A stretch of DNA of 64,000 bases from Desulfomonile tiedjei DSM 6799 (GTDB lineage: Bacteria > Desulfobacterota > Desulfomonilia > Desulfomonilales > Desulfomonilaceae), in contig NC_018025.1 in the NCBI RefSeq assembly GCF_000266945.1, positions 2,232,001-2,296,000 of the forward strand. The letters run 5' to 3'. The position numbers and the translations under genes were made by a program. The notes below the pieces were generated by a model, which ran no database searches, was not told where the DNA came from, and worked only from the letters and a program-made list of their open reading frames with translations. Positions 35,135 to 53,263 of the stretch are shown piece by piece. Each line of letters starts with the position of its first letter. Positions within the stretch are counted from its first letter, which is position 1.

Positions 35135-36859
35135 ATGTTGACCAAGGTTAAAGCCGATTTGCTCATCATCGGCATGGGCGCGGCAGCGCAAATGGCGGCT
35201 CTTTATGCCCACGAGATAAACCCCAACCTCAATATTCTTATTGTGACAAAAGCCCTCAAAGGCAAGGGTGGTTGCAGCAGGATGGTCCAAGGGGGTTTTA
35301 ACGTTGTGCTGAACAATGAGGATTCCCATGAAAAGCATCTCATGGATACCTTGAAAGGCGGGCAGTACGTCAACGATCAAGAACTCGCAAAGACGCTGGT
35401 CGAACAGGCTACTCCGACTATCAAGGAGCTTGAGACCAAATTCGGGTGCTTCTTCGATCGAAATCCTAACGGTACCATTCATCAAAAGGCTTTTGCCGGA
35501 CAGTCTTTCGATCGAACGGTCCACAAGGGAGACCTGACGGGAATCGAAATTATCAGCCGACTCACGGAACAGGTGATCAAGCGTCGAATTCCTGTTCTCG
35601 AAGAATGCAGAGCGGTGGAGCTGCTTCTGGACGAGACCGGCCAAATCGTTACAGGAGCCCTACTGCTGAATATGAGAAACGGCGAATTCATGGTTGCCGA
35701 GGCTGCAGCTACACTCGTCGCCACGGGTGGAGGACCTACGCATTACCGGTTTCATGCGCCCGGCCCCGAAAAGTCCGTGGATGGCATCGCCATGCTCTAT
35801 CGAGCGGGCGTTTTGATGAAAGATTTGGAGATGCTCCAGTTCCATCCGACAGGGCTCATTGTCCCGGGAAGTGTCGTTGCAGGAGCTCTTCTGGAGGAAG
35901 GGCTTCGGGGATCAGGCGCCCATCTCTTCAACGGAAACGGAGAGCGCTACATGCTCAAGTATGCCCCTGAAGTAGGCGAACGAGCTACTCGGGATGTAGT
36001 GAGTCGATCCTCTTATCTCGAGATGGCGGCCGGTCGTGCATGCCCTGAAGGCGGCGTTCATATCGACGCGGCCCATCTTGGTGCGGACTTCGTCCTGAAA
36101 AACTTTCCCGGCATGGCCGAGAGATGCAGCCAATTCAACTATGACCTGGCACGGGGTCGGGTTCCGGTTTCTCCGTCAGCCCACTTCTTTATGGGAGGGG
36201 CGGTAATAGACACTGGCGGTAAAGCCTCTCTGGAGAAGCTTTTCGTAGCGGGAGAAGATGCCGGTGGTGTTCACGGAGCCAATCGCCTGGGTGGTAATGG
36301 CATCTGCGAGTCGTGTGTATATGGCCGACAAGCTGGAAAAGCGTTGGGCAAGTATCTGTCCAACGGCAATCGGACCATCAAAGAAACCAAGAGCGGCATG
36401 GCCGAGGAGATGATAGCTCGGCTCCAAACGCCGTTTGAGCGCACCGAAGGTGTAGACCCGTTTGCGTTGCGTAAGGAAATTCAGGAACTGAACTGGAACA
36501 AGGTGGGTGTTGCTCGTAACGCTTCCGATCTTGCCGACGCCTTGACGGAGATCGAGGATATAGCCAACGAAGTAAACAAGGTGAGTGTAAGAGGCGGAGC
36601 CGCGTACAATATGATGTACAACACCTTTCTGGACATCCGCAGCATGATTGATGCTACCAGAATGATAGCTTTTTCGGCCCAACTGAGAAACGAAACCCGC
36701 GGTGCTCACTTCCGAAAGGATTTCCCGGATCAACTGGACAAGTATGGCTTATTCAATATTTTCCTTCGTCGCGGCGACAACGGCTTGCCTATGGCTGAAA
36801 AGAAGCCCGTGGTCTTCAGTTACAAGTCACTCCAGGAGTGTCAACAATATAGAAAATAA
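35135..36859 (+). CDS. Fumarate reductase/succinate dehydrogenase-type flavoprotein
   Basis: A 574-residue FAD subunit. Dinucleotide fold GMGAAAQ at 13-19, QGGFNVV, HPTG, the catalytic arginine region LLEEGLRGSG, and GEDAGGVHGANRLGGN. It converts fumarate and succinate in complex II-type enzymes. The position that usually holds the FAD-binding histidine (RSHTVAAQGG) reads GGCSRMVQGG here, with Cys47 in place of His. Non-covalent FAD favours fumarate reduction in known mutants, so direction of the reaction is uncertain. AGGA lies before the ATG. It heads a run of seven genes in one direction. Confidence 0.88.
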   Translation: MLTKVKADLLIIGMGAAAQMAALYAHEINPNLNILIVTKALKGKGGCSRMVQGGFNVVLNNEDSHEKHLMDTLKGGQYVNDQELAKTLVEQATPTIKELETKFGCFFDRNPNGTIHQKAFAGQSFDRTVHKGDLTGIEIISRLTEQVIKRRIPVLEECRAVELLLDETGQIVTGALLLNMRNGEFMVAEAAATLVATGGGPTHYRFHAPGPEKSVDGIAMLYRAGVLMKDLEMLQFHPTGLIVPGSVVAGALLEEGLRGSGAHLFNGNGERYMLKYAPEVGERATRDVVSRSSYLEMAAGRACPEGGVHIDAAHLGADFVLKNFPGMAERCSQFNYDLARGRVPVSPSAHFFMGGAVIDTGGKASLEKLFVAGEDAGGVHGANRLGGNGICESCVYGRQAGKALGKYLSNGNRTIKETKSGMAEEMIARLQTPFERTEGVDPFALRKEIQELNWNKVGVARNASDLADALTEIEDIANEVNKVSVRGGAAYNMMYNTFLDIRSMIDATRMIAFSAQLRNETRGAHFRKDFPDQLDKYGLFNIFLRRGDNGLPMAEKKPVVFSYKSLQECQQYRK

Positions 36860-36944
36860 GGATGAACATCTTAAAGGAACGCCAACACGTTTCACATGAG
36901 GCCTCATGTTTTACATACATGTTCCATCATAAAGGAGTCATTTC

Positions 36945-37295
36945 ATGGCGCAGAATGTTTCCATAGATTATCGAAAGCCTCTGCAATGGGGAGAGCAAGA
37001 TCCTCACCGGAGAGCAAATACCGCTGTCGGAATGTGGGCCTGGCTATTGCAGCGCATCTCTGCTCTGGCCATCGTCGTGTTCATAGGCCTTCACGTTGCC
37101 GTCACGTACAGCAGACTTACACAGCTCCTTCTCCTGCTGGCGGTCACCTTCCATGCGGCCCTGGGAATACGAGTGATTCTGCTGGATTTTAACATCGTCA
37201 ACGTAAAATATCAGCGAGCGCTTGTTTGGAGCCTGATCGGTCTCGGAATAGCCGTTATGGGCATCATCTGGTACTCCACGTATTTCATGGGATGA
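36945..37295 (+). CDS. Small membrane anchor, SdhC/SdhD-like (116 aa)
   Basis: A single 116-residue protein with three helices (about 30-52, 57-77 and 88-112). QRISALAIVVFIGLHVAV and FHAALGIRVILLDF carry the two histidines that could hold heme b and match the SdhC/SdhD patterns. It anchors the flavoprotein and iron-sulfur subunits to the membrane and binds quinone. Only one anchor is present, unlike the usual pair. AAAGGAG precedes the ATG. Confidence 0.75.
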   Translation: MAQNVSIDYRKPLQWGEQDPHRRANTAVGMWAWLLQRISALAIVVFIGLHVAVTYSRLTQLLLLLAVTFHAALGIRVILLDFNIVNVKYQRALVWSLIGLGIAVMGIIWYSTYFMG

Positions 37296-37520
37296 CACCA
37301 GTGGTGATCGCTAAGGAAAGACTAATGCTCTGTTTCGTAAATTCCGTCACACATTCTCGTCATTCGGCTCATGGTCAACGCAGCCTTTTATTGGGGGAGC
37401 CGGCCTCCGTGTCGGTAACTAACCCGCCGGCAATGGGGCCGGTTCCACCGATCGGTCGTAAAGACGAAAGTGCAAGGCACGTTACCATACTTGCGAAAAG
37501 GCGTATTAAGGAGGACAGAC

Positions 37521-38780
37521 GTGCAACCGACGCCCAGTAACACAACACGCCATATCAGAATATTCCGCTACGATCCTCATAAAGGTGGTTCAGGTGATTT
37601 CCAAGAGTACACATTGCGTGTCGATGACGAAATCAGAACTACGATCCTGGATGTACTCTTGCGACTTCAACGGGAGCAAGACCCGACTCTGGCATTCCGT
37701 TATGCGTGTCGGGTCAACATGTGCGGGTCGTGCGGCATGGTTATTAACGGCAAAGAGCGATTGGCGTGCAAAACCAACGTTTCGGATATACGGTCGGATG
37801 AAGAAATAACCATAAGACCCCTTAATCACTTTCCGGTAATTAAGGATCTTGTGGTGGACATGGACCCCTTCTTCAAGAAATACGAAGAAGCTCTCACCTT
37901 CTATGAGCCCAAAGAACACTATACAGAACCTCTGCAGATCCGTCCTGATTCGACAGAGCGCTTGGACATAGGCATGGCCACGGAATGCATAGCCTGTGGC
38001 TGCTGCGTTTCAAGTTGCACCATGTGCAACTATCATGACGAGTATGCCGGCCCCGCCGCTCTGACCAGAGCTTTCACACTCTTGGCGGACAGTCGTGATG
38101 CCTTGTTCCACGAGCGACTCGAACGGACTTTGGCGTCTTGCTACAACTGCCGAACGGAGTTCAACTGCACGGAAGTGTGTCCGAAGGGCATCAGCGGCAC
38201 CCGGGCAATCAAGTACATTCAGCGGCTGGCTCTAAAACACCTTGCAGATGCACGCAAGGGGGAGGAAATTGCGCCGGCGACTAACATTTTGCCACAGATC
38301 GCCAAGAGCGAACCTGACAGAAGGGTGTTCTTTCGTCAGGTTGGTATCGGTGTGCTTGGGCTGGGGGCGGCGCTCATAGTAGGAGGAGTGGCGACCAAGG
38401 CAGCAGTCGGACCGGGCATTGCAGCCAATATTACAAAAACCTGGGTTCCAGTAGCGGACTTGGGCAAAATTCCGATCGGGGATATCAGCACGCATACAGT
38501 GCATTACGAGCTCAAGAACGGTTTCTACACACAAGAAAAGGCCGTGCCGGTCCTCGTATCACGCACCGGCGACGAGATGACCTGCTTCAATGCGAGTTGC
38601 ACGCACGCCGGATGTATCGTGAAATGGGACGGACAGTCCGGTCGTTTCCGTTGTGCATGCCATGGTGGAATGTTTGACCGTGAAGGCAACGTGCTGGCCG
38701 GTCCGCCGCCTCGGCCGCTTGACAAGTACCCCTTCAAAGTGGATTCCGGTCACCTGCTCATTGAGATGGAGGTGGTCTAA
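37521..38780 (+). CDS. SdhB iron-sulfur subunit fused to a Rieske [2Fe-2S] protein
   Basis: A 419-residue fusion. Residues 10-245 are an SdhB/FrdB subunit: [2Fe-2S] cysteines C63, C68, C71, C83; second set C156, C159, C162, C166; third set C210, C216, C220-P. Then RRVFF at 267-271, one helix (about 272-296), and a Rieske domain with CTHAGC (360-365) and CACHG (378-382). Ligands C360, H362, C378, H381 and the disulfide pair C365/C380 are all present. The N-side relay and P-side Rieske fit one crossing of the membrane. The GTG start is preceded by AAGGAGG. A sequencing or frame error is unlikely as all motifs are intact. Confidence 0.85.
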   Translation: MQPTPSNTTRHIRIFRYDPHKGGSGDFQEYTLRVDDEIRTTILDVLLRLQREQDPTLAFRYACRVNMCGSCGMVINGKERLACKTNVSDIRSDEEITIRPLNHFPVIKDLVVDMDPFFKKYEEALTFYEPKEHYTEPLQIRPDSTERLDIGMATECIACGCCVSSCTMCNYHDEYAGPAALTRAFTLLADSRDALFHERLERTLASCYNCRTEFNCTEVCPKGISGTRAIKYIQRLALKHLADARKGEEIAPATNILPQIAKSEPDRRVFFRQVGIGVLGLGAALIVGGVATKAAVGPGIAANITKTWVPVADLGKIPIGDISTHTVHYELKNGFYTQEKAVPVLVSRTGDEMTCFNASCTHAGCIVKWDGQSGRFRCACHGGMFDREGNVLAGPPPRPLDKYPFKVDSGHLLIEMEVV

Positions 38781-38781
38781 C

Positions 38782-40269
38782 ATGAACGGCAACTGGATTC
38801 GTGAGAGAATAGGGTGGGAGCCTTATTTGAGGCCTTTTCTGTTCAAGAAGCTTCCCCAGGGAACGGGATGGATGGCGACCTTGGGAAACCTGAGCGTCCT
38901 TCTGTTCGTGCTTCTGTTTTTCACGGGCATCGTTTTGGCGATGTACTATAATCCCTCACCCGACAAGGCTTGCCAGTCTATCGATTACATTATGAACGAA
39001 GTGCCTATGGGATCGATTCTGCGAGGACTTCATCACTGGGGAGCCGGGGCCATGGTTCTCGTAGTGTTTGTCCACCTTCTGGCGACGTTCTTCTCCGGCA
39101 GCTACAAGGCTCCGAGAGAGTTAACCTGGATCGTCGGCGTAGTTCTGTTTCTTGTGACGCTAGGATTGGGGTTCACCGGCTACCTTCTTCCATGGGATAT
39201 GAAGGCTTATTGGGCTACCGTAGTCAGTTCAAGCATCGTTAAGAGTGCTCCCGGAATCGGTGATTATATGGGAAGAATCATGCTTGGAGGCGAGAGTGTG
39301 TCCGGTCTGACCCTCACCAGGTTTTACGCCATCCACATGCTGCTCCTGCCTGCTTTGCTCGTTATCCTTGTCGTCATGCATATATACCTTGTTCGCGTTC
39401 ACGGCTTGGCCGAACACGCGGAAGCAAAATCCGCGGAGAGTGAAATCGGCCGCCCTGTCCAACGGTTCTTTCCTGAGCATCTCTTCAGAAGTTCCATAGT
39501 TTTCTGCGTGGTGCTGGTCATTCTTATCGGCCTGTCGGTTTTCGGCACAGTTCCCAGGGAAGAAATGGCGGGCACCATTATCGATTCTTACCAGCCAAAA
39601 CCGGAATGGTATTACATGTGGCTGTTCCAACTCCTGACCTATTTTTCCGGCATCTGGGAGACGATTGTGAGCCTCATCGTCCCAGTGGTCGCAATCGCCG
39701 TCCTGTTCCTAGTACCGTTCCTCGGCCACCCTAACATCCGTTCATTGGCCGATCGCCCCGCAGCTATGGCCATGGGCGTTACCGGGGTTGTTTGTATCGT
39801 TTACTTGAACCTCATGGGATTTGCCAGCGTTCGTCCTTATGGAGAGACCATTCCTGTTCCCGATCGCACGCTTTCTGCACATGAAAAGCGAGGTCTGTTT
39901 GTCTATGTCGAGCGTGAATGCGCCTATTGTCACCAAATTAGCGGCAGAGGCGGGAATCGAGTGGGACCGGATCTCGCTAATGTGGCGTCGAAAGGCAGGA
40001 CCGAGGACTACCTGAACAGATATGTGAAGAATCCCCAGGCGGTCAAATCCACCTCTATCATGCCGAAGTACGATCTCTCCGACAAAGATCTGACAGCTCT
40101 CTCTGGAATCATGCTCGCTCTGGACTTCAGCAAGTACCCCATGAAGATCATGAAACGGGAAGAGGTTCTCAAAAGCATTTCAGCATCCCAGTCGTCAACG
40201 ACTGAAAACGTTCAAGCGCATTTGCCGGGCGGTTCCGCAACCGCTTCGGAGGAGGCAAAAGACAGATGA
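38782..40269 (+). CDS. Cytochrome b6-type protein fused to C-terminal cytochrome c
   Basis: A 495-residue membrane protein. Heme b ligands H84/H98 (spacing x13) and H185/H200 (x14, the b6-type spacing), quinol site motif PEWY at 274-277, at least eight helices, then a cytochrome c domain with CAYCH at 380-384 and a likely methionine ligand in SIMPKY (M427). It is cytochrome b6, subunit IV and a c-type cytochrome in one chain. GGAGG lies eleven bases before the ATG. It starts one base after the SdhB-Rieske stop, and its own stop overlaps the fumarase start. Confidence 0.88.
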   Translation: MNGNWIRERIGWEPYLRPFLFKKLPQGTGWMATLGNLSVLLFVLLFFTGIVLAMYYNPSPDKACQSIDYIMNEVPMGSILRGLHHWGAGAMVLVVFVHLLATFFSGSYKAPRELTWIVGVVLFLVTLGLGFTGYLLPWDMKAYWATVVSSSIVKSAPGIGDYMGRIMLGGESVSGLTLTRFYAIHMLLLPALLVILVVMHIYLVRVHGLAEHAEAKSAESEIGRPVQRFFPEHLFRSSIVFCVVLVILIGLSVFGTVPREEMAGTIIDSYQPKPEWYYMWLFQLLTYFSGIWETIVSLIVPVVAIAVLFLVPFLGHPNIRSLADRPAAMAMGVTGVVCIVYLNLMGFASVRPYGETIPVPDRTLSAHEKRGLFVYVERECAYCHQISGRGGNRVGPDLANVASKGRTEDYLNRYVKNPQAVKSTSIMPKYDLSDKDLTALSGIMLALDFSKYPMKIMKREEVLKSISASQSSTTENVQAHLPGGSATASEEAKDR

Positions 40270-41147
40270 ACAATTTCGACTATCAAATTTTGGAAGAAGC
40301 GGCAAAGCAGCTCTATATACGTGCCCTATGCGACCTGCCGCCTGATGTCAGAGCAGCTCTGAAAAAGGCGTACGATCGCGAAACAAAGCCAACTGCACGG
40401 TCTGTTTTCGAGGCCATGTTCAAGGCTATCGAGATTGCAGATACGGAAAAAACACTTATTTGCCAGGACACAGGATTACCTATCTACAAAGTCAAGATCG
40501 GCTCACAGTTCTCCTGGGACGGTTTTCAGATCAAGAATTGCCTCTACGAAGGAGCCCGGAGAGCTACTCAGGAATTCCCCTTCCGAAGCAGCTCCACACA
40601 TCCTTTGGCCAGAATCAATCCCCAGACTTCAGTCGGTCCTGGCCTGCCGGTAATTTATTTCGATTTTGTCGGAGACTCCGACTGTCTCGACATTCTTATG
40701 GCGCCCAAGGGTTCTGGATCTGAAAACATGAGCAAAATGCACATGTTTTATCCTGAACATGGAGTAAAAGCCCTCAAAAAGTTCATTGTGGACACGGTTG
40801 TGGAAACAGGTGCGAACCCGTGTCCTCCCGGAATCATCGGTGTCGGCATCGGGGGCACTGCCGATCTGGTTATGAAACTGGCCAAAGATGCCATCTTGCG
40901 CCCTGTCGGTCAGAGAAATCACGATCCGGAGATCGCCAAGATGGAAGAGGAACTGGAAGACGCCATCAACGCCACAGGTCGCGGCCCCATGGGCCTTGGG
41001 GGCGACGTATCCACATTGGCTGTGCATATCGAATCCGCTTACACCCATATTACCCAAAACCCGGTTGCCGTAAACACTCAGTGCTGGCCGGCCAGACGGT
41101 CGAGAGCTGTCATTCGCCCGAACGGCACCGTCGAATACGGGTACTAA
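40266..41147 (+). CDS. Class I fumarase alpha subunit
   Basis: A 293-residue catalytic subunit of the [4Fe-4S] fumarase/tartrate dehydratase family. Cluster cysteines are in LICQDTG (C66), NPCPPGIIG and NTQCWPARR. It interconverts fumarate and malate in the cytoplasm and is oxygen sensitive. The start overlaps the cytochrome stop (ATGA), so translation is coupled. The beta subunit follows after 21 bases. Confidence 0.92.
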   Translation: MNNFDYQILEEAAKQLYIRALCDLPPDVRAALKKAYDRETKPTARSVFEAMFKAIEIADTEKTLICQDTGLPIYKVKIGSQFSWDGFQIKNCLYEGARRATQEFPFRSSSTHPLARINPQTSVGPGLPVIYFDFVGDSDCLDILMAPKGSGSENMSKMHMFYPEHGVKALKKFIVDTVVETGANPCPPGIIGVGIGGTADLVMKLAKDAILRPVGQRNHDPEIAKMEEELEDAINATGRGPMGLGGDVSTLAVHIESAYTHITQNPVAVNTQCWPARRSRAVIRPNGTVEYGY

Positions 41148-41168: not shown

Positions 41169-41756
41169 ATGACGGAATACCATCTCAAATCGCCTTTTTC
41201 AGAACAGGACGTCAGGCAGCTAAAGGCTGGGGACATCGTGTTCTTTGATGGGCTGCTTTTCGGAATTCGGGATCTCACTCAGATCTATATGTTCGACCAG
41301 AACCACGAGCCACCAGTCAGCCTGGTGGGTGCCCCATGCATTCACACAGCACCCAGTTTGCGGAAAGTAGGCGACAAATGGGAGAAGATCTGTGTAGGCA
41401 CTACTACGAGCACGCGTATGGAGCGCTTCACTCCGGATCTCATCCGAAAATACGGGGTGCGGGCCATCATTGGAAAAGGTGGACTGTACCAGGGCAGCCT
41501 GGATGCCATGAAAGAATACGGGGCCGTTTACCTTGCCATCGTGGGCGGTGCGGCAGCTCTGGAAACGAAGCAGATTGAAGAGATTGAAGCAGTATACTGG
41601 GAGCATCTTCATCCGGAAGCTCTGTACCAATTCAGGGTAAAGGACTTTGGACCCCTGACCGTGGCGATGGATAGTCACGGCAGGCATCTTTACGACGAAG
41701 TGAAGAAGGAAGCTCTGGAGCGACTTCCGAAAATTTACAGAGAATTAGGCGTTTAA
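41169..41756 (+). CDS. Class I fumarase beta subunit
   Basis: A 195-residue C-terminal subunit of the class I fumarase/tartrate dehydratase family, with the characteristic IGKGGLYQG loop and LAIVGGAAAL. Together with the alpha subunit it makes the full hydratase. A Shine-Dalgarno-like TTAGGAG stands before the ATG. Confidence 0.92.
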   Translation: MTEYHLKSPFSEQDVRQLKAGDIVFFDGLLFGIRDLTQIYMFDQNHEPPVSLVGAPCIHTAPSLRKVGDKWEKICVGTTTSTRMERFTPDLIRKYGVRAIIGKGGLYQGSLDAMKEYGAVYLAIVGGAAALETKQIEEIEAVYWEHLHPEALYQFRVKDFGPLTVAMDSHGRHLYDEVKKEALERLPKIYRELGV

Positions 41757-41960: not shown

Positions 41961-43253
41961 ATGGAAGGAAAAAGCTGGTCAATATTCCGAATTCCGTTAC
42001 CGATCAGAGTGGTTGGTTTCCTCATAATCGGCCTTGCTCTAGGATTGGCTTTCCCAAAAAACACTTTCATCAACTATGTTTACATAAGCGGTACGTACTT
42101 CCCCAAGACTATAGTGACATTTGCCGCGTTCTTGATCTTCAACCTCCTTGCGGCTGCAATGGCCAAAATGATGCTCTGGCACAAGGAAAAGGCCGGAAAA
42201 CTGTTCGGCCTCATCCTTGGCATGTATGTATTCATGGGGTGCATTTCGCTTGTATATTGCACGGGTTGGATAACCGTCTTGTCGGATGTTCCTTTTACCC
42301 TACCCGGTGTTGAAGTCCCAGGCCCGGCTGCTTGGGCGAAACAAATCGGCCACACGTTTGCCAACGTCCTTTCCCAGCAGCCGCTCCTACAGGCCCTTCT
42401 GGGAGCCATGTTTGTCGGGTGGCTAACAGCCCGTGTTCCTGCTCTTCATCGCGTGGCTTACGGGTTCATAAAAATGGGGGATTACATTCTGTGGTTTTTT
42501 AAGAAACTGCTTTGGTACTACCCCATAATGATCGGTTGCCTCGCAATTGGCATCCCCATGAAATTCGGCATGAAGGGTATGGCGCTCTACGGGCAGGCCG
42601 TGCTCTGGGTCATGATTGTAACCTGTGTATGGGTGATGCTCATGATCCTGGTGTGCAGACTCTTTACGAAAAGAACGTTCGGGCAGATCATGTCCTACTA
42701 TGGAACCGTGTGGCCGACCGGGTTCGGCACGGGAGGTTCCTACGACACTCTTGCCATAAACATCATCTCGGCAGAAAAAGACTTGGGCCTGGACGAAGAT
42801 ATCGCAGAGGTTTCTATCGTCTTCGGAACAGTCCTTAACAAGAACTGCAGCACCATGTCGGTTCTTATTGTCACCATCATTGTATGCAAACTACTCAATA
42901 TCCCTATTTCCTTGACCGAAATCATCATGTTGATTCCGCCCGTCATGATACTCGGATTGGAATCACCCGGCATACCTGGAGGAGCCGGATACTTTATGTC
43001 GCCGATTATAGCGGTTCTACTGTCCGCACCGGATCAAAGCGTGTTTGTGACAAGTTTTGTGACTGTGTTTAGCGGTCTGATTCCCATGTTCAGCACTGCG
43101 GGCAACACCACAGATGACGGCGTAGTCGGTTGCTTTCTCCAGGATCGCTTTGGTCATCTGATTAGCAAAGGTGACCTGGAAGGAGCCGGAACGGCGACTG
43201 AGCCTGCAATCAGACACCAGGAAGAGCGGAAGGATGCGGTCAATGCTAACTAA
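41961..43253 (+). CDS. Dicarboxylate/amino acid:cation symporter
   Basis: A 430-residue inner-membrane carrier of the DAACS type. Eight or more helices and two re-entrant-like parts: GTVLNKNCSTMSVLIV and AGNTTDDGVVG occupy the places of the family's NMDGT and Asn-Asp cation-binding motifs. It most likely imports malate, fumarate or succinate with Na+ or H+, feeding the fumarase and flavoprotein above. A 204-base gap separates it from fumarase. Confidence 0.8.
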   Translation: MEGKSWSIFRIPLPIRVVGFLIIGLALGLAFPKNTFINYVYISGTYFPKTIVTFAAFLIFNLLAAAMAKMMLWHKEKAGKLFGLILGMYVFMGCISLVYCTGWITVLSDVPFTLPGVEVPGPAAWAKQIGHTFANVLSQQPLLQALLGAMFVGWLTARVPALHRVAYGFIKMGDYILWFFKKLLWYYPIMIGCLAIGIPMKFGMKGMALYGQAVLWVMIVTCVWVMLMILVCRLFTKRTFGQIMSYYGTVWPTGFGTGGSYDTLAINIISAEKDLGLDEDIAEVSIVFGTVLNKNCSTMSVLIVTIIVCKLLNIPISLTEIIMLIPPVMILGLESPGIPGGAGYFMSPIIAVLLSAPDQSVFVTSFVTVFSGLIPMFSTAGNTTDDGVVGCFLQDRFGHLISKGDLEGAGTATEPAIRHQEERKDAVNAN

Positions 43254-43727: not shown

Positions 43728-44498
43728 ATGGAAGTCTACCAGATAGTTGTGCTTTGCGCTGCCGCCGTCGCTTCTTCCTTCATAAAGAACACCGCTGCCT
43801 TAGGAGCTGGGGTTTTTCTCACACCGGTCCTTGCAGCAGTGTTTCCCCCAAAGATTGCCCTTGGATTGGGAGCTCCCATTCTGATTGCCACTGACGTTTC
43901 CAGCATGAAGAATTACTGGGGAGAGTGGGAGAATCCGAAGGAGGTTCTTCGTATCGGCATATCCGCAATTCCCGGTGTTATATTGGGAGCTTGCATCATC
44001 AATGTTGTACCGAATAATATCCTCAAAACAGGCATAGGCACATTTGCCCTTCTGTTTTCAGTCTATCATCTCGTCAAAGAATCGCGGTTATACAGGAGCA
44101 TTCAGCCTTCCCCCACAACTGCAACGGGTGATGCCCCGCTTTGTTCCGGCACGGTTTCATGTACCTTGGTGGGTGTCTTCGGTGGTCTGGCCTCCATTCT
44201 TGCGCATGCCGGCGGACTTGTTTTTTCGCTCTATTACGTGGGAAAGAAACTGGAAAAACGTTGCCTCATGGCATCGCTCATCGCCGTGTTTTGCTTCAGC
44301 GATGTAGTCAAATTGATTGCCTACTTGAATATCGGAGTCTTAAGTGCTGACTCGTGCCTTATCATCCTTGCCATGTCTCCGATCATCATCCTTGGAGGTA
44401 ACCTGGGCAATTTTCTGAATCGCAAGATGCGGACTGAAGTTTTTAGGAAAATCGTCTTGCTGCTGGTATTTGTGAGCGCGATCAATCTGCTCCTCTGA
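43728..44498 (+). CDS. TauE/SafE family anion exporter
   Basis: A 256-residue inner-membrane protein with eight helices and the two-fold repeat of the TauE/SafE (sulfite/organosulfonate export) family; GAGVFLTPVLAAVFPPKIALGLGAP is the N-terminal motif region (about residues 26-50) and the second repeat begins VGVFGGLASILAHAGG. It may export sulfite or another anion; the dicarboxylate setting suggests other acids are also possible. Confidence 0.82.
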   Translation: MEVYQIVVLCAAAVASSFIKNTAALGAGVFLTPVLAAVFPPKIALGLGAPILIATDVSSMKNYWGEWENPKEVLRIGISAIPGVILGACIINVVPNNILKTGIGTFALLFSVYHLVKESRLYRSIQPSPTTATGDAPLCSGTVSCTLVGVFGGLASILAHAGGLVFSLYYVGKKLEKRCLMASLIAVFCFSDVVKLIAYLNIGVLSADSCLIILAMSPIIILGGNLGNFLNRKMRTEVFRKIVLLLVFVSAINLLL

Positions 44499-45287: not shown

Positions 45288-46916
45288 GTGAAATCCCTCA
45301 GAGGACGCACATTGATGGGAACGCGTATGAGACATGGTTCTCCTGAAGAAAAATCGCCAAGAGGACTGAGCGATTGCAGAAAATCTGTGTGGAATCCCGA
45401 AAGCCGTTACAAGGCTCTGCTTGAGATTAATAATGCTATTATTAATCAGACTTCCCGGGAAGACCTGTTTCGGTGCATGGCAAGGGAGATCACCAGGTAT
45501 ATTGATTACGATCGTTTCAGTATCAGCATTTATGAATCCGATTCAAATTCATTGACTGTATTCGCTATGGCGGAGGGGATTCCCATCAGGGAAATTGACG
45601 ACAGCCGTCGCTCCATGAATGCCGACACAGTGGCCAAAGCGGTCATTACCTCACGCAAGGCGCTCATCATTTCCGATTTGGCGCAATACGCTCATTGGAA
45701 CACGATCCAGTCAATGATTGCCGCCGGCCTTCAGTCGACTATGGCGTTTCCCCTGATTGCCCGAGGCAAGGTAGTGGGCTCGCTGCATTTCTCTTTCAAG
45801 AGCAAGCCTTCAAAGATGGAAGAATTCGCGGGGTTTCTCTCGGATTTGTCAGGTCAAGTCGCGCTCGCTGTCGACAACATGCTGTCTCATACAAAATTGC
45901 TTGAACTGAATAGCAATCTGGAACAACAGAAACATTACCTCATGGACCATGTGGACTCCCAATACCGTCCCGATAATTTTCACTATTCAAGTAGAGTCAT
46001 GAAGGAAATCATGGCTCAGGTGGACATTATTGCCGACAGTGATGCGGGCGTGCTCATCACGGGTGAAACCGGTACTGGCAAGGACTACATTGCACGGTAT
46101 ATTCATCACTTGAGCAGCAGGCGTGATGGGATGTTCGTCAAGGTCACGTGTCCGGCTCTGGCTGAAAGCTTATTCGAAAGTGAGATGTTCGGGCATGCAA
46201 AAGGCGCTTTCACCGGCGCCAATTCCAAACGGATCGGTCGCTTCGAAATGGCTTCAGGTGGAACGGTATTCCTTGACGAAATAGGCGAGCTTCCGCTTAC
46301 ACTCCAAGCCAAACTTCTCCATGTGCTCCAGGACATGCGTTTTGAGAGAGTAGGCGACAGCAGACCCATTGCTGTTGATTTCAGGGTAATTGCCGCTACG
46401 AACAGAGACCTGGAAAGCGCGATTCAGACGAAAGATTTTCGCTCCGACCTATATTATAGACTCAATACGGTTTCTTTCCATGTTCCTCCACTCCGTGAGC
46501 GGGGAGAGGAAATCGAACCGCTGATTCGACAGTTAACTGATTCACAGTCCGAAAACATGCGTCGAATCCCTCCTATCTATTCCGATCAAGCAATGGAGTT
46601 GATGAAAGAGCATTCCTGGCCGGGAAACGTTCGAGAGCTCAAGAACATAGTGACACGATTGATTATTGTATTCAGCGGAAAAGTAGTGAATAAGAAAGAC
46701 ATTGAGCCGCTCTTGAATACGAAGCGCAGCGAATCTTCGAGCACACCCATGACACTGCGTGAAGTGGAGCGAGCTCATCTCATAAAAGTGCTTTCCATGA
46801 CAAAAGGAGTAGTGGGAGGCAAAAATGGAGCAGTAAGCATCTTGAAAATTCCTAAGTCCACCCTTCAGTACAGGCTGTACAAGCACGGAATCGATCCTTT
46901 GGATTTCGCGCATTAG
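45288..46916 (+). CDS. Sigma-54-dependent activator with N-terminal GAF domain
   Basis: A 542-residue regulator of the FhlA/NifA layout. GAF sensor (about residues 40-205), AAA+ domain (Walker A GETGTGKD, GAFTGA, Walker B FLDEIGEL) and a C-terminal DNA-binding helix-turn-helix (SILKIPKSTLQYRLYKHGI). GAF domains bind small ligands. Its place after the redox and carrier genes, and the -24/-12 promoter at 35030, make it the probable activator of the island. Starts at 45288 (GTG) or 45315 (ATG) are both served by purine-rich sites. Confidence 0.9.
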   Translation: MKSLRGRTLMGTRMRHGSPEEKSPRGLSDCRKSVWNPESRYKALLEINNAIINQTSREDLFRCMAREITRYIDYDRFSISIYESDSNSLTVFAMAEGIPIREIDDSRRSMNADTVAKAVITSRKALIISDLAQYAHWNTIQSMIAAGLQSTMAFPLIARGKVVGSLHFSFKSKPSKMEEFAGFLSDLSGQVALAVDNMLSHTKLLELNSNLEQQKHYLMDHVDSQYRPDNFHYSSRVMKEIMAQVDIIADSDAGVLITGETGTGKDYIARYIHHLSSRRDGMFVKVTCPALAESLFESEMFGHAKGAFTGANSKRIGRFEMASGGTVFLDEIGELPLTLQAKLLHVLQDMRFERVGDSRPIAVDFRVIAATNRDLESAIQTKDFRSDLYYRLNTVSFHVPPLRERGEEIEPLIRQLTDSQSENMRRIPPIYSDQAMELMKEHSWPGNVRELKNIVTRLIIVFSGKVVNKKDIEPLLNTKRSESSSTPMTLREVERAHLIKVLSMTKGVVGGKNGAVSILKIPKSTLQYRLYKHGIDPLDFAH

Positions 46917-48192: not shown

Positions 48193-48471
48193 ATGGTCCA
48201 ATTTTTGGTGCACGAAAAGGCAGACACCGTTGGCGTTGCAACGGTGGACATAAAATCGGGTGAGGAGGTCCATGGGCTTTACATGGATTCGCAAGAGCCG
48301 GTAGTGGTGAAAGCCGTCGCGGACATCCCATTGGGTCATAAGATCGCTTTGATCGATTTCAAAATTGGTGACACTGTTCTGAAATACGGCCAAGATATCG
48401 GCAAAATTGTCGCCGCAGTCAATATCGGTGATCACGTTCACATCCAGAATTTGAAGACAAAGAGGTGGTAA
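48193..48471 (+). CDS. UxaA-family lyase small subunit (SAF domain), SuyA-like
   Basis: A 92-residue protein made of one SAF domain ([20 protein letters not shown]...[12 protein letters not shown]...HVHI), as in altronate/galactarate dehydratases and SuyA of (2R)-sulfolactate sulfo-lyase. It works with the large subunit that starts two bases after its stop. The separate small subunit is like SuyA rather than the fused UxaA/GarD enzymes. Substrate unproven. Confidence 0.75.
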
Positions 48472-48473
48472 GC

Positions 48474-49637
48474 ATGACTATACCCAAATTCCTCGGTTAT
48501 CGCCGTGAAAACGGAAGAGTTGGTGTTCGGAATCATGTCTTGATTCTGCCATTGGACGATCTGTCAAACGCTGCATGCGAAGCAGTTGCCAATAATGTGA
48601 AGGGCACAATGGCAATCCCCCATTCTTATGGCCGCCTGCAATTCGGGGAGGATCTCGAGCTTTTCTTCCGGACAATAATCGGAACAGGCTCCAACCCCAA
48701 TGTCGCAGCGGTGGTGGTTATCGGAATCGAACCTGAATGGACGGACAGAATCGTCCAAGGCATTGCTGTAACCGGCAAGCCTGTTAGAGGTTTCTCCATC
48801 GAGCGCACCGGGGATATTGGCACTATCGCTGCAGCCTCGCGTCAGGCCAAGGAATATGTCCAGTGGGCTACCGAACTCCCGAGAACCGAGTGTACCTTGG
48901 ACGAACTATACGTATCGGTGAAATGCGGCGAATCGGATACCACCTCCGGTCTGGCTTCAAATCCCACGGTTGGGAATGTAGTGGAAAAGCTGGTGGAAAT
49001 GGGTGCGACCACCTGTTTCGGGGAAACGTCCGAGATCACCGGAGCAGAGCACGTATGCAAGCAACGAGGGGCCACTCCCGAAATCGGCGAGGAGTTTATG
49101 AGGGTTTGGACGGCCTACAACGATACCATCCTGCAATACAAAACCGATGATTTGTCCGGATCACAGCCCACAAAGGGAAATATCAGAGGCGGACTGACAA
49201 CTATAGAGGAGAAAGCATTCGGGAATCTCCAGAAGATAGGCAAGAAAGTGAGCTATATCGGCGTGTTGAAGCCCGCTGAAGCTCCAAAAGGCAAGGGACT
49301 GTGGTACATGGACACATCCTCTGCTGCAGCCGAGGCTGTGACTCTTTGGGCGGCTTCGGGGGCTGTTGTCCATCTTTTTCCTACCGGCCAGGGAAATATC
49401 ATCGGTAACGCCATTCTGCCAGTGATCAAATTGTCGGCGAACCCTCTGACTTGCAGCACAATGACCGAGCATATTGACTTGGACGTATCGGCTATCCTCA
49501 GAGGAGAAATGACGTTGGACCAGGCTGGAGACGCACTGCTAAAGATGATAGAGCGTACCGCAAACGGTCGTCTCACGGCATCAGAAGCCCTGGGGCATCG
49601 CGAATTCGTGTTGACGAAGCTGTATGTCAGCGCCTGA
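48474..49637 (+). CDS. UxaA-family lyase large subunit, SuyB-like
   Basis: A 387-residue catalytic subunit of the altronate dehydratase/sulfolactate sulfo-lyase family: [16 protein letters not shown] at the start, [12 protein letters not shown] in the middle and [18 protein letters not shown] near the end, the parts that bind iron and substrate in this family. GAGGTGG precedes the ATG at 48474. The reaction is either water elimination from a sugar acid or sulfite elimination from sulfolactate to give pyruvate. An MFS carrier follows and a TauE carrier lies 4.7 kb upstream, which suits a sulfonate, but neither is proof. Confidence 0.78.
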
Positions 49638-51720: not shown

Positions 51721-52983
51721 TCATTCCTGAGCCCCATGGGCTTTCAGATATTCCATGATTTCCTTGTGCCCTTTCTCCTGTGCAATCTTCAAAGCAGTCC
51801 GTCCAGGCCCCCGCCCCAGGTGGCTAGGATTTCTGTCCTTTAAGGTTCTTACTATAGACCGGAGAAACGCCGACAGCCCGTCATTAGTTTTTTCCTTCGC
51901 ATTGACGTCAACTCCTTTCTCGATGAGGAGTTTGACTATTTCCAGTCTGCCTTGATCGGTGGCAACCATGAGAGCCGTTTTGCCGCTATCATCTTTGGCA
52001 TTGGCGTCCGACCCCTTGTCTATGAGCAACTTGGCTACATCCGGGTTGACCCCTTTGGCAGCACACATGAGCACCGTGTGGCCGTACTTGTCTCTGGCCT
52101 TTACGTCGAGCCCTTTATCGATCAGGAATTTGACTACATCCAGGTGGCCCCCCCAGGCAGCAGACATGAGAACCGTCCAGCCGCTCTTATCCCTGGCCCT
52201 TACGTCGAGCCCTTTATCGATCAGGAACTCGACCACATCCAGCTTGCCTCCCTTGGCAGCAGGCATGAGCACCGTGTGGCCGCTATCATCTTTGGCCTTT
52301 ACGTCAGCTCCTTTCTCGATGAGGAACTTCACTACATCCAGGTGGCCGCCCCAAGCAGCAGGCCAGAGAACCGTGTGGCCGTCCGTGTCCCTGACCTTTA
52401 CGTCGAGCCCTTTCTCGATGAGGAACTTGACAACATCCAAGTTGCCTCCCAAGGCAGCATCCATGAGAACCGTGTGGCCGCTATCATCTTTGGCCTTTAC
52501 GTCAGCTCCTTTCTCGATGAGGAACTTCACTACATCCAGGTGGCCGCCCCAAGCAGCAGGCATGAGAACCGTCTCGCCGTCCTTGTCTGTGGCCTTTACA
52601 TCGAGCCCTTTCTCGATGAGGAACTTGACCACATCCAGCTTGCCTTCCACGGCAGCATGCATGAGAACCGTGTGGCCGCTATCATCTTTGGCCTTTACGT
52701 CAGCTCCTTTCTCGATGAGAAGCTTGACTACATCCAGGTTTTTTCCCCCCTGGGCAGCAGCCATGAGAGCGGTCTGGCCGTCGTGGGTCTTGGCATCAAT
52801 ATCCACACCCTGATTCAAAAGGCGGATTACTTCGTTCAGGTCCCCTTTTCGGGCGGCTCTTACCAACTCAGGATCTTTATCGGCTGCTTGAACAATGCTC
52901 GCACTGTATACCAACAGAACGGCAAGTACGAGCACTGCAAATATGATGATACTCTCGGGGACTTTGAATTTATGCTTGGGCAT
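51721..52983 (-). CDS. Ankyrin-repeat protein, exported
   Basis: A protein of about 420 residues with an N-terminal hydrophobic signal (SIIIFAVLVLAVLLVYSASI) and ten ankyrin repeats of 33 residues plus a partial one (GHTVLMPAAKGGKLDVVEFL). Alternate repeats are very alike, with a 66-residue unit (ADVKAKDDS repeat, then LDVKxxDxD repeat) copied several times, also at DNA level. Ankyrin arrays bind other proteins; position outside the inner membrane is inferred from the signal. The ATG at 52983 is used; another at 53004 gives seven more residues. Confidence 0.85.
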   Translation of the reverse strand: MPKHKFKVPESIIIFAVLVLAVLLVYSASIVQAADKDPELVRAARKGDLNEVIRLLNQGVDIDAKTHDGQTALMAAAQGGKNLDVVKLLIEKGADVKAKDDSGHTVLMHAAVEGKLDVVKFLIEKGLDVKATDKDGETVLMPAAWGGHLDVVKFLIEKGADVKAKDDSGHTVLMDAALGGNLDVVKFLIEKGLDVKVRDTDGHTVLWPAAWGGHLDVVKFLIEKGADVKAKDDSGHTVLMPAAKGGKLDVVEFLIDKGLDVRARDKSGWTVLMSAAWGGHLDVVKFLIDKGLDVKARDKYGHTVLMCAAKGVNPDVAKLLIDKGSDANAKDDSGKTALMVATDQGRLEIVKLLIEKGVDVNAKEKTNDGLSAFLRSIVRTLKDRNPSHLGRGPGRTALKIAQEKGHKEIMEYLKAHGAQE

Positions 52984-53263
52984 GTCGATCTGTATCCTAT
53001 TCATTTGTTGGTGTTCACTTTGCTTGCCGTTCGTATAGAGATAAAGGAGAATGCAACAAACACCATAAGCATTTCTCTGTGGTGTCCAGTCTTTTCTTCT
53101 CTGAACATTCGCGACTGAAGAAGATGCCGCTCTGATGGATCGAATGCACCAAGCAGCCCCATCTCTCGTGTAGCACGCTCTTCTCTTTAGGTTGGATCTC
53201 TTTACAGAGGTCTCAATTCAGAATAAAGATATCCTCTTCTCTTGACTCCCATTGCGACAGCTT

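Follow-up and report, generated by a model that had tools for sequence, protein, structure and literature searches.

A fused SdhB-Rieske protein links complex II to a cytochrome bc-type module

In the genome of Desulfomonile tiedjei DSM 6799 (assembly GCF_000266945.1, contig NC_018025.1), a single polypeptide joins the iron-sulfur subunit of a complex II-type enzyme, SdhB, to a Rieske protein, and it is encoded next to a fusion of cytochrome b6/subunit IV with cytochrome c. The cluster lies in a stretch of 64,000 nucleotides (positions 2,232,001 to 2,296,000 of the contig), hereafter the window, from whose first letter all window coordinates are counted. The connection of complex II with a Rieske/cytochrome b complex, already pointed out in the initial annotation, is real, conserved, and usually contained in one operon. 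We propose, with evenly balanced confidence, that it tethers the two complexes into one assembly oxidizing 3-sulfopropionate, with hydration of sulfoacrylate and cleavage of sulfolactate as the subsequent steps; its substrate, direction and electron path we infer from the protein sequences and their gene neighborhoods.

Four genes on the plus strand make up the cluster. The first (35135-36859; Pfam PF00890, FAD_binding_2; PF02910, Succ_DH_flav_C) encodes an FrdA/SdhA-type flavoprotein of the noncovalent-FAD kind, the proposed 3-sulfopropionate dehydrogenase subunit, and is followed by the gene for a single membrane anchor (36945-37295; PF01127, Sdh_cyt) for which hydropathy and alignment indicate three helices, helices I and II each with a conserved His. 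The fusion gene itself (37521-38780; PF13085, Fer2_3; PF13183, Fer4_8; PF00355, Rieske) starts with GTG, immediately preceded by aaggagg, and leads in a single frame from SdhB through an RR motif and one helix to the Rieske protein. The cytochrome b6/subunit IV-monoheme cytochrome c fusion (38782-40269; PF00033, Cytochrome_B; PF00032, Cytochrom_B_C; PF00034, Cytochrom_C) starts with ATG and likewise occupies one frame with its ligands in place. The coordinates originally assigned to these genes were correct, and we refined the gene starts.

A sequencing error does not account for the SdhB-Rieske frame, since we found it in at least 27 loci, 26 of them distinct and most of them from Desulfobacterota. 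Fused loci of the window type are termed F1 and those with another gene order F2; f21 and split denote unfused coupled operons, and f50 denotes uncoupled relatives. Among the 23 distinct F1 loci, all 22 that hold the region preserve the order FrdA, anchor, SdhB-Rieske, cytochrome b-c (the 23rd is cut), so that the four-gene arrangement of the window is conserved in other genomes; the three distinct F2 loci read FrdA, SdhB-Rieske, cytochrome b-c, anchor. Cytochrome b and SdhB searches with strict cut-offs in 395 genomes of the phylum yielded 8 genomes with the fused frame, and a genome scan yielded at least 15 named fused loci among its best 80 loci. The fusion occurs in 8 of 199 genomes of one Desulfovibrio-like order, is full-length in 1 of 198 genomes of the phylum of a Nitrospirae metagenome-assembled genome (MAG), and had no full-length match in the other 59 genomes of a close-relative sample. 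Its carriers include the isolate Desulfovibrio cuneatus DSM 11391 and MAGs labelled Solidesulfovibrio, Desulfotignum, Desulfocapsaceae, Syntrophaceae, Nitrospirae and Acidobacteria; the loci of the latter two may be transfers or mis-binned contigs. An apparent joined frame of cytochrome b and fumA (L061, 5429-7747) was discarded as the product of a run of N in the contig. Our literature search, from whose coverage subscription journals were mostly absent, found no paper on an SdhB-Rieske fusion.

Hydropathy analysis predicts three helices in the anchor, none in FrdA, and a single one in the SdhB-Rieske protein, which upholds the helix proposed in the initial annotation between the two domains but places it at residues 269-287 rather than 272-296. 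The topology derived from it, with SdhB on the cytoplasmic side and the Rieske domain outside, fits as well. In 16 aligned fused proteins, no variation occurs at the 11 cluster Cys of SdhB, the two Cys and two His ligands of the Rieske domain, its two disulfide Cys or the RR motif; all 23 fused rows examined have this motif ahead of the helix. In split operons, the separate Rieske proteins start with the same kind of RR motif, and in the fused proteins motif and helix together look like a Tat-type Rieske signal relocated inside a chain. All 26 rows of the cytochrome b alignment have the four heme His, all 25 that reach the position have the Qo motif P-[ED]-W-[YF], and all 21 with a cytochrome c part have CxxCH and the Met ligand; this part is missing from five rows, two truncated at contig ends and three split-type proteins that have none. 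In the anchor alignment, the helix I His is present in the fused proteins and the helix II His in all 25 rows. The cluster consequently possesses the flavoprotein and three-cluster SdhB of a complex II together with the b-heme His, Qo motif, Rieske ligands and cytochrome c of a cytochrome bc complex. The earlier statement that all cluster and heme ligands are intact stands for SdhB, Rieske, b-heme and c-heme ligands, but the flavoprotein lacks the His for covalent FAD.

A fold search with an AlphaFold2 (AF2) model of the fusion retrieved SdhB chains at poor rmsd, the model being weak there, and Rieske chains (8hn2_A, TM 0.74), with no structure across both halves among the best 50 matches. Likewise, no sequence spanning SdhB and Rieske was present among the best 60 of 94 matched Protein Data Bank (PDB) entries. 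The length of the SdhB-Rieske linker differs between members.

The F1 flavoprotein and its sulfonate gene company

The initial annotation suggested that the system could be a succinate or fumarate machine. That F1 is plainly such a machine is not supported, because its flavoprotein has no His for covalent FAD, carries an altered substrate-pocket residue, and keeps company with genes for sulfonate catabolism. When aligned to solved structures and relatives, 18 of 18 F1 flavoproteins lack the covalent-FAD His, and Glu replaces the pocket Thr (LLEEGLRG versus LVTEGCRG of Escherichia coli SdhA), the remaining catalytic motifs being preserved. At the FAD site and the pocket, GGCSRMVQGG and LLEEGLRG are found in all 18 and also in 11 of 11 plasmid-borne relatives; the covalent-type RSH together with the pocket Thr is present in two complete F2 and three split sequences. 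Among PDB entries, the flavoprotein matches 7d6v_A best. A covalent-type SdhA is present in addition in at least nine F1 genomes, including that of D. tiedjei (L154). According to the portion of a review consulted here, covalent attachment raises the potential of FAD and is required for succinate oxidation (PMC10238741). An assignment of the F1 enzyme as a fumarate reductase, derived from its noncovalent FAD, was dropped in view of its SuyAB-like, sulfite-related and Ldh/SerA-like neighbors.

Downstream in the window, on the plus strand, lie genes for a SAF-domain small subunit (48193-48471), related by BLAST to the small partner of UxaA pairs, and for a UxaA-family large subunit (48465-49637) resembling SuyB of 3-sulfolactate sulfo-lyase. 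The nearest annotated relatives of this pair, 66-70% identical, are neighbors of hpsN/hpsO in Cupriavidus pinatubonensis HN-2 and, in Paracoccus versutus, lie close to genes for sulfite oxidase, a sulfate exporter and pyruvate carboxylase. SuyAB has been described from C. pinatubonensis and Paracoccus, as far as the sections of the source used here extend (PMC6278857). The records themselves say only "UxaA family hydrolase", and the identification of the pair as a putative SuyAB is ours.

Such a pair lies within the examined stretch of 12 of the 23 F1 loci (at window 48193-49637 and directly next to the cluster in eleven others), at 2.3-9.7 kb from the fusion in the nine genomes measured; in G420, G422 and G580 it is found elsewhere in the genome. 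When both searches are taken together, 17 of 23 F1 genomes have a SuyB-like gene, as against none of the three F2, four split, eight f21 and three f50 genomes. In the 395-genome sample of the phylum, it is present in 5 of 6 F1 genomes and in 13 of 389 others (Fisher p = 6.4e-7, a value that ignores kinship; counted by genus, in 3 of 4 F1 genera). A fumA/fumB-like pair accompanies 17 of the 23 F1 loci; in the window, it comprises a fumarase-type hydratase alpha subunit (40266-41147; PF05681; above the cut-off of NF004885), the proposed sulfoacrylate hydratase, and a beta subunit (41169-41756; PF05683), both on the plus strand. D. tiedjei also has a second SuyB-like gene (G000:C1:3837628-3838791), 88% identical to the window copy.

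The same flavoprotein type occurs in 19 plasmid records (that of Gemmatirosa is remote). We examined 12 of these, one of them unannotated; the other 11 come from aerobes and haloarchaea. Nine of the 11 annotated regions contain TauE/SafE, a sulfite oxidase or dehydrogenase, a sulfate exporter or a UxaA pair, compared with none of six regions around ordinary SdhA/FrdA within about 9 kb (the six were picked among 25 rows listed of 86 records, and one is a lone flavoprotein). Fumarate hydratase alpha/beta genes are likewise present in 9 of the 11, and in two haloarchaea a lyase annotated as argH is found there. At 60% identity or above, a SuyB-like gene was detected in 6 of the 19 flavoprotein plasmid records versus only 13 of 72,556 records overall. 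In haloarchaea (L225, 2425-10422; L229, 4488-11456), flavoprotein and SdhB stand beside a UxaA pair and TauE with no annotated anchor. The aerobe Methylobacterium radiotolerans has a cluster of this kind that lacks Rieske. In two Bacillus clusters (L072 and L075), genes for this type of flavoprotein, for SdhB, an anchor and a fumarase-like enzyme are combined with a UxaA pair, GntR, and Ldh- and SerA-like genes; sulfolactate is racemized by two dehydrogenases of the Ldh and SerA types.

A proposed route for 3-sulfopropionate

3-Sulfopropionate is a succinate analogue in which a sulfonate replaces one carboxylate. The path from succinate via fumarate to malate is thereby paralleled by one from 3-sulfopropionate via 3-sulfoacrylate to 3-sulfolactate, the substrate of SuyAB, and on this ground 3-sulfopropionate dehydrogenase is the most likely identity of the F1 complex. 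In our model, complex II and the Rieske/cytochrome b-c complex would form one membrane assembly tethered via the SdhB-Rieske chain, whose flavoprotein would take two electrons from 3-sulfopropionate to yield 3-sulfoacrylate; the fumarase-like enzyme would hydrate the latter to 3-sulfolactate, and the SuyAB-like pair would cleave this to pyruvate and sulfite, the sulfite being reduced by sulfite respirers. Electrons leaving FAD would travel along the three SdhB clusters and reach a quinone bound between anchor and cytochrome b; the Qo site would then pass them on to the Rieske center and the external cytochrome c as well as to the b hemes. The tether would serve to hand electrons to a high-potential partner instead of releasing them into the pool; its likely reason is that oxidation of a succinate-like substrate should be uphill onto menaquinone. 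Its restriction to these anaerobes would be understandable, as aerobes can use a high-potential quinone or oxygen and menaquinone users cannot easily do so. More tentatively, the system might be regarded as a covalently bridged, energy-converting complex II-III hybrid dedicated to C3-sulfonates, in which a shared quinone site feeds Rieske, b hemes and cytochrome c, and which could be the missing first step of 3-sulfopropionate respiration in sulfite reducers.

3-Sulfopropionate is a source of electron acceptor that feeds the growth of Bilophila (PMC11489063). In its consulted passages, the same paper cites a thesis for a sulfoacrylate/sulfolactate route in an aerobe and describes the corresponding route of sulfite reducers as still in need of investigation; 3-sulfopropionate degradation by Bilophila is termed unclear in the relevant passage of a 2026 review (PMC12890257).

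Several observations weigh against this proposal. The exchange of Thr for Glu in the pocket lacks a structural explanation, the AF2 prediction is poor for the second half of SdhB, and the fused chain may be cleaved after synthesis. No universal acceptor for cytochrome c was found: among 22 fused genomes, 12 have a member of the heme-copper oxidase family, some of which may be NO reductases, and 6 a member of the cytochrome c peroxidase family, so that neither an oxidase nor a peroxidase qualifies as the general partner. Six of the 23 F1 genomes, including the basal G067, G425 and G426, have no SuyB-like gene, and some basal F1 clusters adjoin KorAB/SucCD-like genes instead; in these six, the complex may be used on succinate, as it probably is in F2. 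L048 and L049 have the SuyAB-like pair and no close fumAB in the stretch examined, and a SuyB-like gene without the fusion exists in many Desulfovibrio-type genomes. Among the plasmids, the region of Sulfitobacter S190 lacks a sulfite gene, and that of P. seriniphilus has a distant YeiH gene only.

Alternative explanations

The cluster could be a hard-wired oxidoreductase acting on C4-dicarboxylates, of the succinate:cytochrome c (or quinol:fumarate) type, flanked by an ordinary fumarase and C4-dicarboxylate carrier. The fumarase-like gene does score above the NCBIfam cut-off for fumarate hydratase, an SDF-family carrier is present, and the consulted excerpt of a paper on Desulfotignum phosphitoxidans infers a reductive C4 branch (PMC4046663) in an organism whose frdABC may or may not be this cluster. 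For F2 and split operons this is the better reading, because they carry a covalent-FAD SdhA and F2 stands beside sucCD. For the system as a whole we nevertheless consider it rather unlikely: in F1 the FAD is not of the covalent type and the pocket Thr is replaced by Glu, the linkage of F1 to SuyAB-like and sulfite genes is strong, and the covalent-type SdhA of D. tiedjei is encoded separately.

Two further explanations concern the bridge itself, and we hold both to be improbable. The assembly might run as a reverse redox loop, in which the membrane potential drives electrons from a cytoplasmic substrate outward via the b hemes, reducing menaquinone at Qo, with the Rieske center supplying or buffering the second electron. 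Menaquinone-linked succinate dehydrogenases have just such an energetic need, and sulfite reducers without heme-copper oxidase carry the fusion (G288, G268, G313, G350), so that a high-potential sink is not obvious; however, a PEWY-type Qo motif, Rieske center and cytochrome c are components of a bc enzyme that runs forward. Alternatively, two ordinary enzymes might merely share a translation unit, the chain being cleaved in the variable linker ahead of the RR motif, after which SdhB and Rieske would function separately, much as the cytochrome b-c1 precursor of Bradyrhizobium is cleaved. The varying linker length and the separate genes of f21 and split operons would agree with this; retention of the fusion in 26 distinct loci does not, and neither does the presence of one anchor rather than two in coupled operons, though two Bacillus clusters without Rieske share the latter trait.

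Unfused relatives and history of the modules

Separate SdhB and Rieske genes, which the initial annotation would have counted against the bridge, do exist in some related operons, but the same two modules adjoin there, and their adjacency without fusion argues for joint function, not against it. In f21 genomes (L143-L146, L153), unfused Rieske, cytochrome b-c, FrdA, anchor and SdhB form one operon, and in the split type of Aminicenantes and UBA7520, SdhB and Rieske are overlapping separate genes; the loci of Aminicenantes and UBA7520 are the only 3 of 65 unfused SdhB loci listed by the genome scan with a Rieske motif in the examined flanks. The f21 operons also hold DsrM- and DsrK-like genes (below curated cut-offs), and a 1208-residue f21 protein considered as a multiheme cytochrome was dropped, as it has one CxxCH.

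Tests on SdhB (p = 0.0001) and Rieske (p = 0.017) reject a common descent of the fused, f21 and split clusters as a single block; for cytochrome b alone, a grouping of the fused type with f21 (p = 0.19) or with the split type (p = 0.33) is not rejected. Because neither the SdhB nor the Rieske tree allows all coupled types to form a single clade, these phylogenies indicate that the modules were assembled more than once, or exchanged. A single fusion event for F1 and F2 is compatible with cytochrome b, which groups them (82, unstarred), and not rejected by SdhB (p = 0.098) or Rieske (p = 0.27). Their flavoproteins, by contrast, fall in different clades: those of F1 belong together with f21, f50 and Bacillota/Chloroflexota sequences in a clade of 30 rows (100, quick tree), and F2 groups with split.

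Coupled operons have one anchor gene, and uncoupled flavoprotein relatives have two or a double-length one (3 of 3 f50, L068, L069, L071, L073, and 9 of 11 annotated plasmids). The notion that one anchor marks Rieske coupling was weakened by Bacillus L072 and L075, which have one anchor and no Rieske, and a single anchor is therefore no proof of complex formation. The f50 loci (L147-L149) represent a plain four-subunit version with two anchors, adjoining two TauE-like genes together with a sigma-54 activator of the kind found in the window; no SuyB-like gene was found in them at 65% identity or above.

Further genes of the neighborhood

Between the hydratase genes and the SuyAB-like pair, the plus strand of the window encodes an SDF-family dicarboxylate symporter-like carrier (41961-43253; PF00375), a candidate for uptake whose approximately 78-80% identical copies adjoin FrdA in L214 and L215 and lie downstream in L054. 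It is followed by a transporter (43728-44498) that matches by BLAST open reading frames (ORFs) of F1 and f50 loci and that we take to be TauE/SafE-like from its sequence, and by a GAF and sigma-54 activator (45288-46916; NCBIfam), a recurrent neighbor with relatives adjoining other F1 and f50 loci. In L048 (4657-6339) and L049 (4656-6338), a second, distant FAD protein, 24% identical to FrdA, directly follows cytochrome b-c and is itself followed by a ferredoxin-like flavin oxidoreductase and by TRAP-like genes. The ORF at window 51721-53004 appears by eye to be built of many near-identical ankyrin-like repeats.

Relation to known systems and implications

The cluster shares the flavoprotein, three-cluster SdhB and Sdh_cyt anchor with succinate:quinone oxidoreductases and quinol:fumarate reductases, but its SdhB ends in a Rieske protein, its FAD site lacks the His, its anchor is one three-helix gene, and its neighbors are of the sulfonate type. 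With menaquinol:cytochrome c complexes, in which b6/subunit IV/cytochrome c fusions work with a Rieske protein, it has in common the four b-heme His, PEWY, Rieske, monoheme c and, where the pattern matched, the H-x14-H of helix D; it differs in that SdhB bears the Rieske domain, that b6, subunit IV and c are one chain, and that the cytochrome b alignment has no Cys at what we take to be the position of the b6 heme c(i) Cys. Class F complex II (Mycobacterium smegmatis Sdh1), as described in the consulted part of the review, also has a Rieske-type cluster, and 7d6v_A as best PDB match of the flavoprotein is a further point of likeness, but its cluster is located in a membrane subunit (PMC10238741); here, instead of such a cluster in a single six-helix membrane subunit, we find one helix and a separate, whole Rieske protein outside the membrane with a cytochrome b-c partner. 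Compared with the SuyAB pathways of Cupriavidus, Paracoccus and Desulfovibrio DF1, to the extent that these were covered (PMC6278857), the closely similar UxaA pair would be fed by a complex II-like dehydrogenase and a fumarase-like hydratase, not by DHPS or cysteate enzymes.

Complexes II and III are usually seen as separate and joined by diffusing quinone, and a conserved chain linking them makes quinone channelling testable. Our analysis moreover defines a flavoprotein family that is annotated as fumarate reductase or FAD-binding protein and probably does not act on fumarate. If the proposed substrate is true, these would be the first genes for 3-sulfopropionate breakdown in sulfite-respiring anaerobes, and they would fill a stated gap in the anaerobic conversion of sulfonates to hydrogen sulfide.

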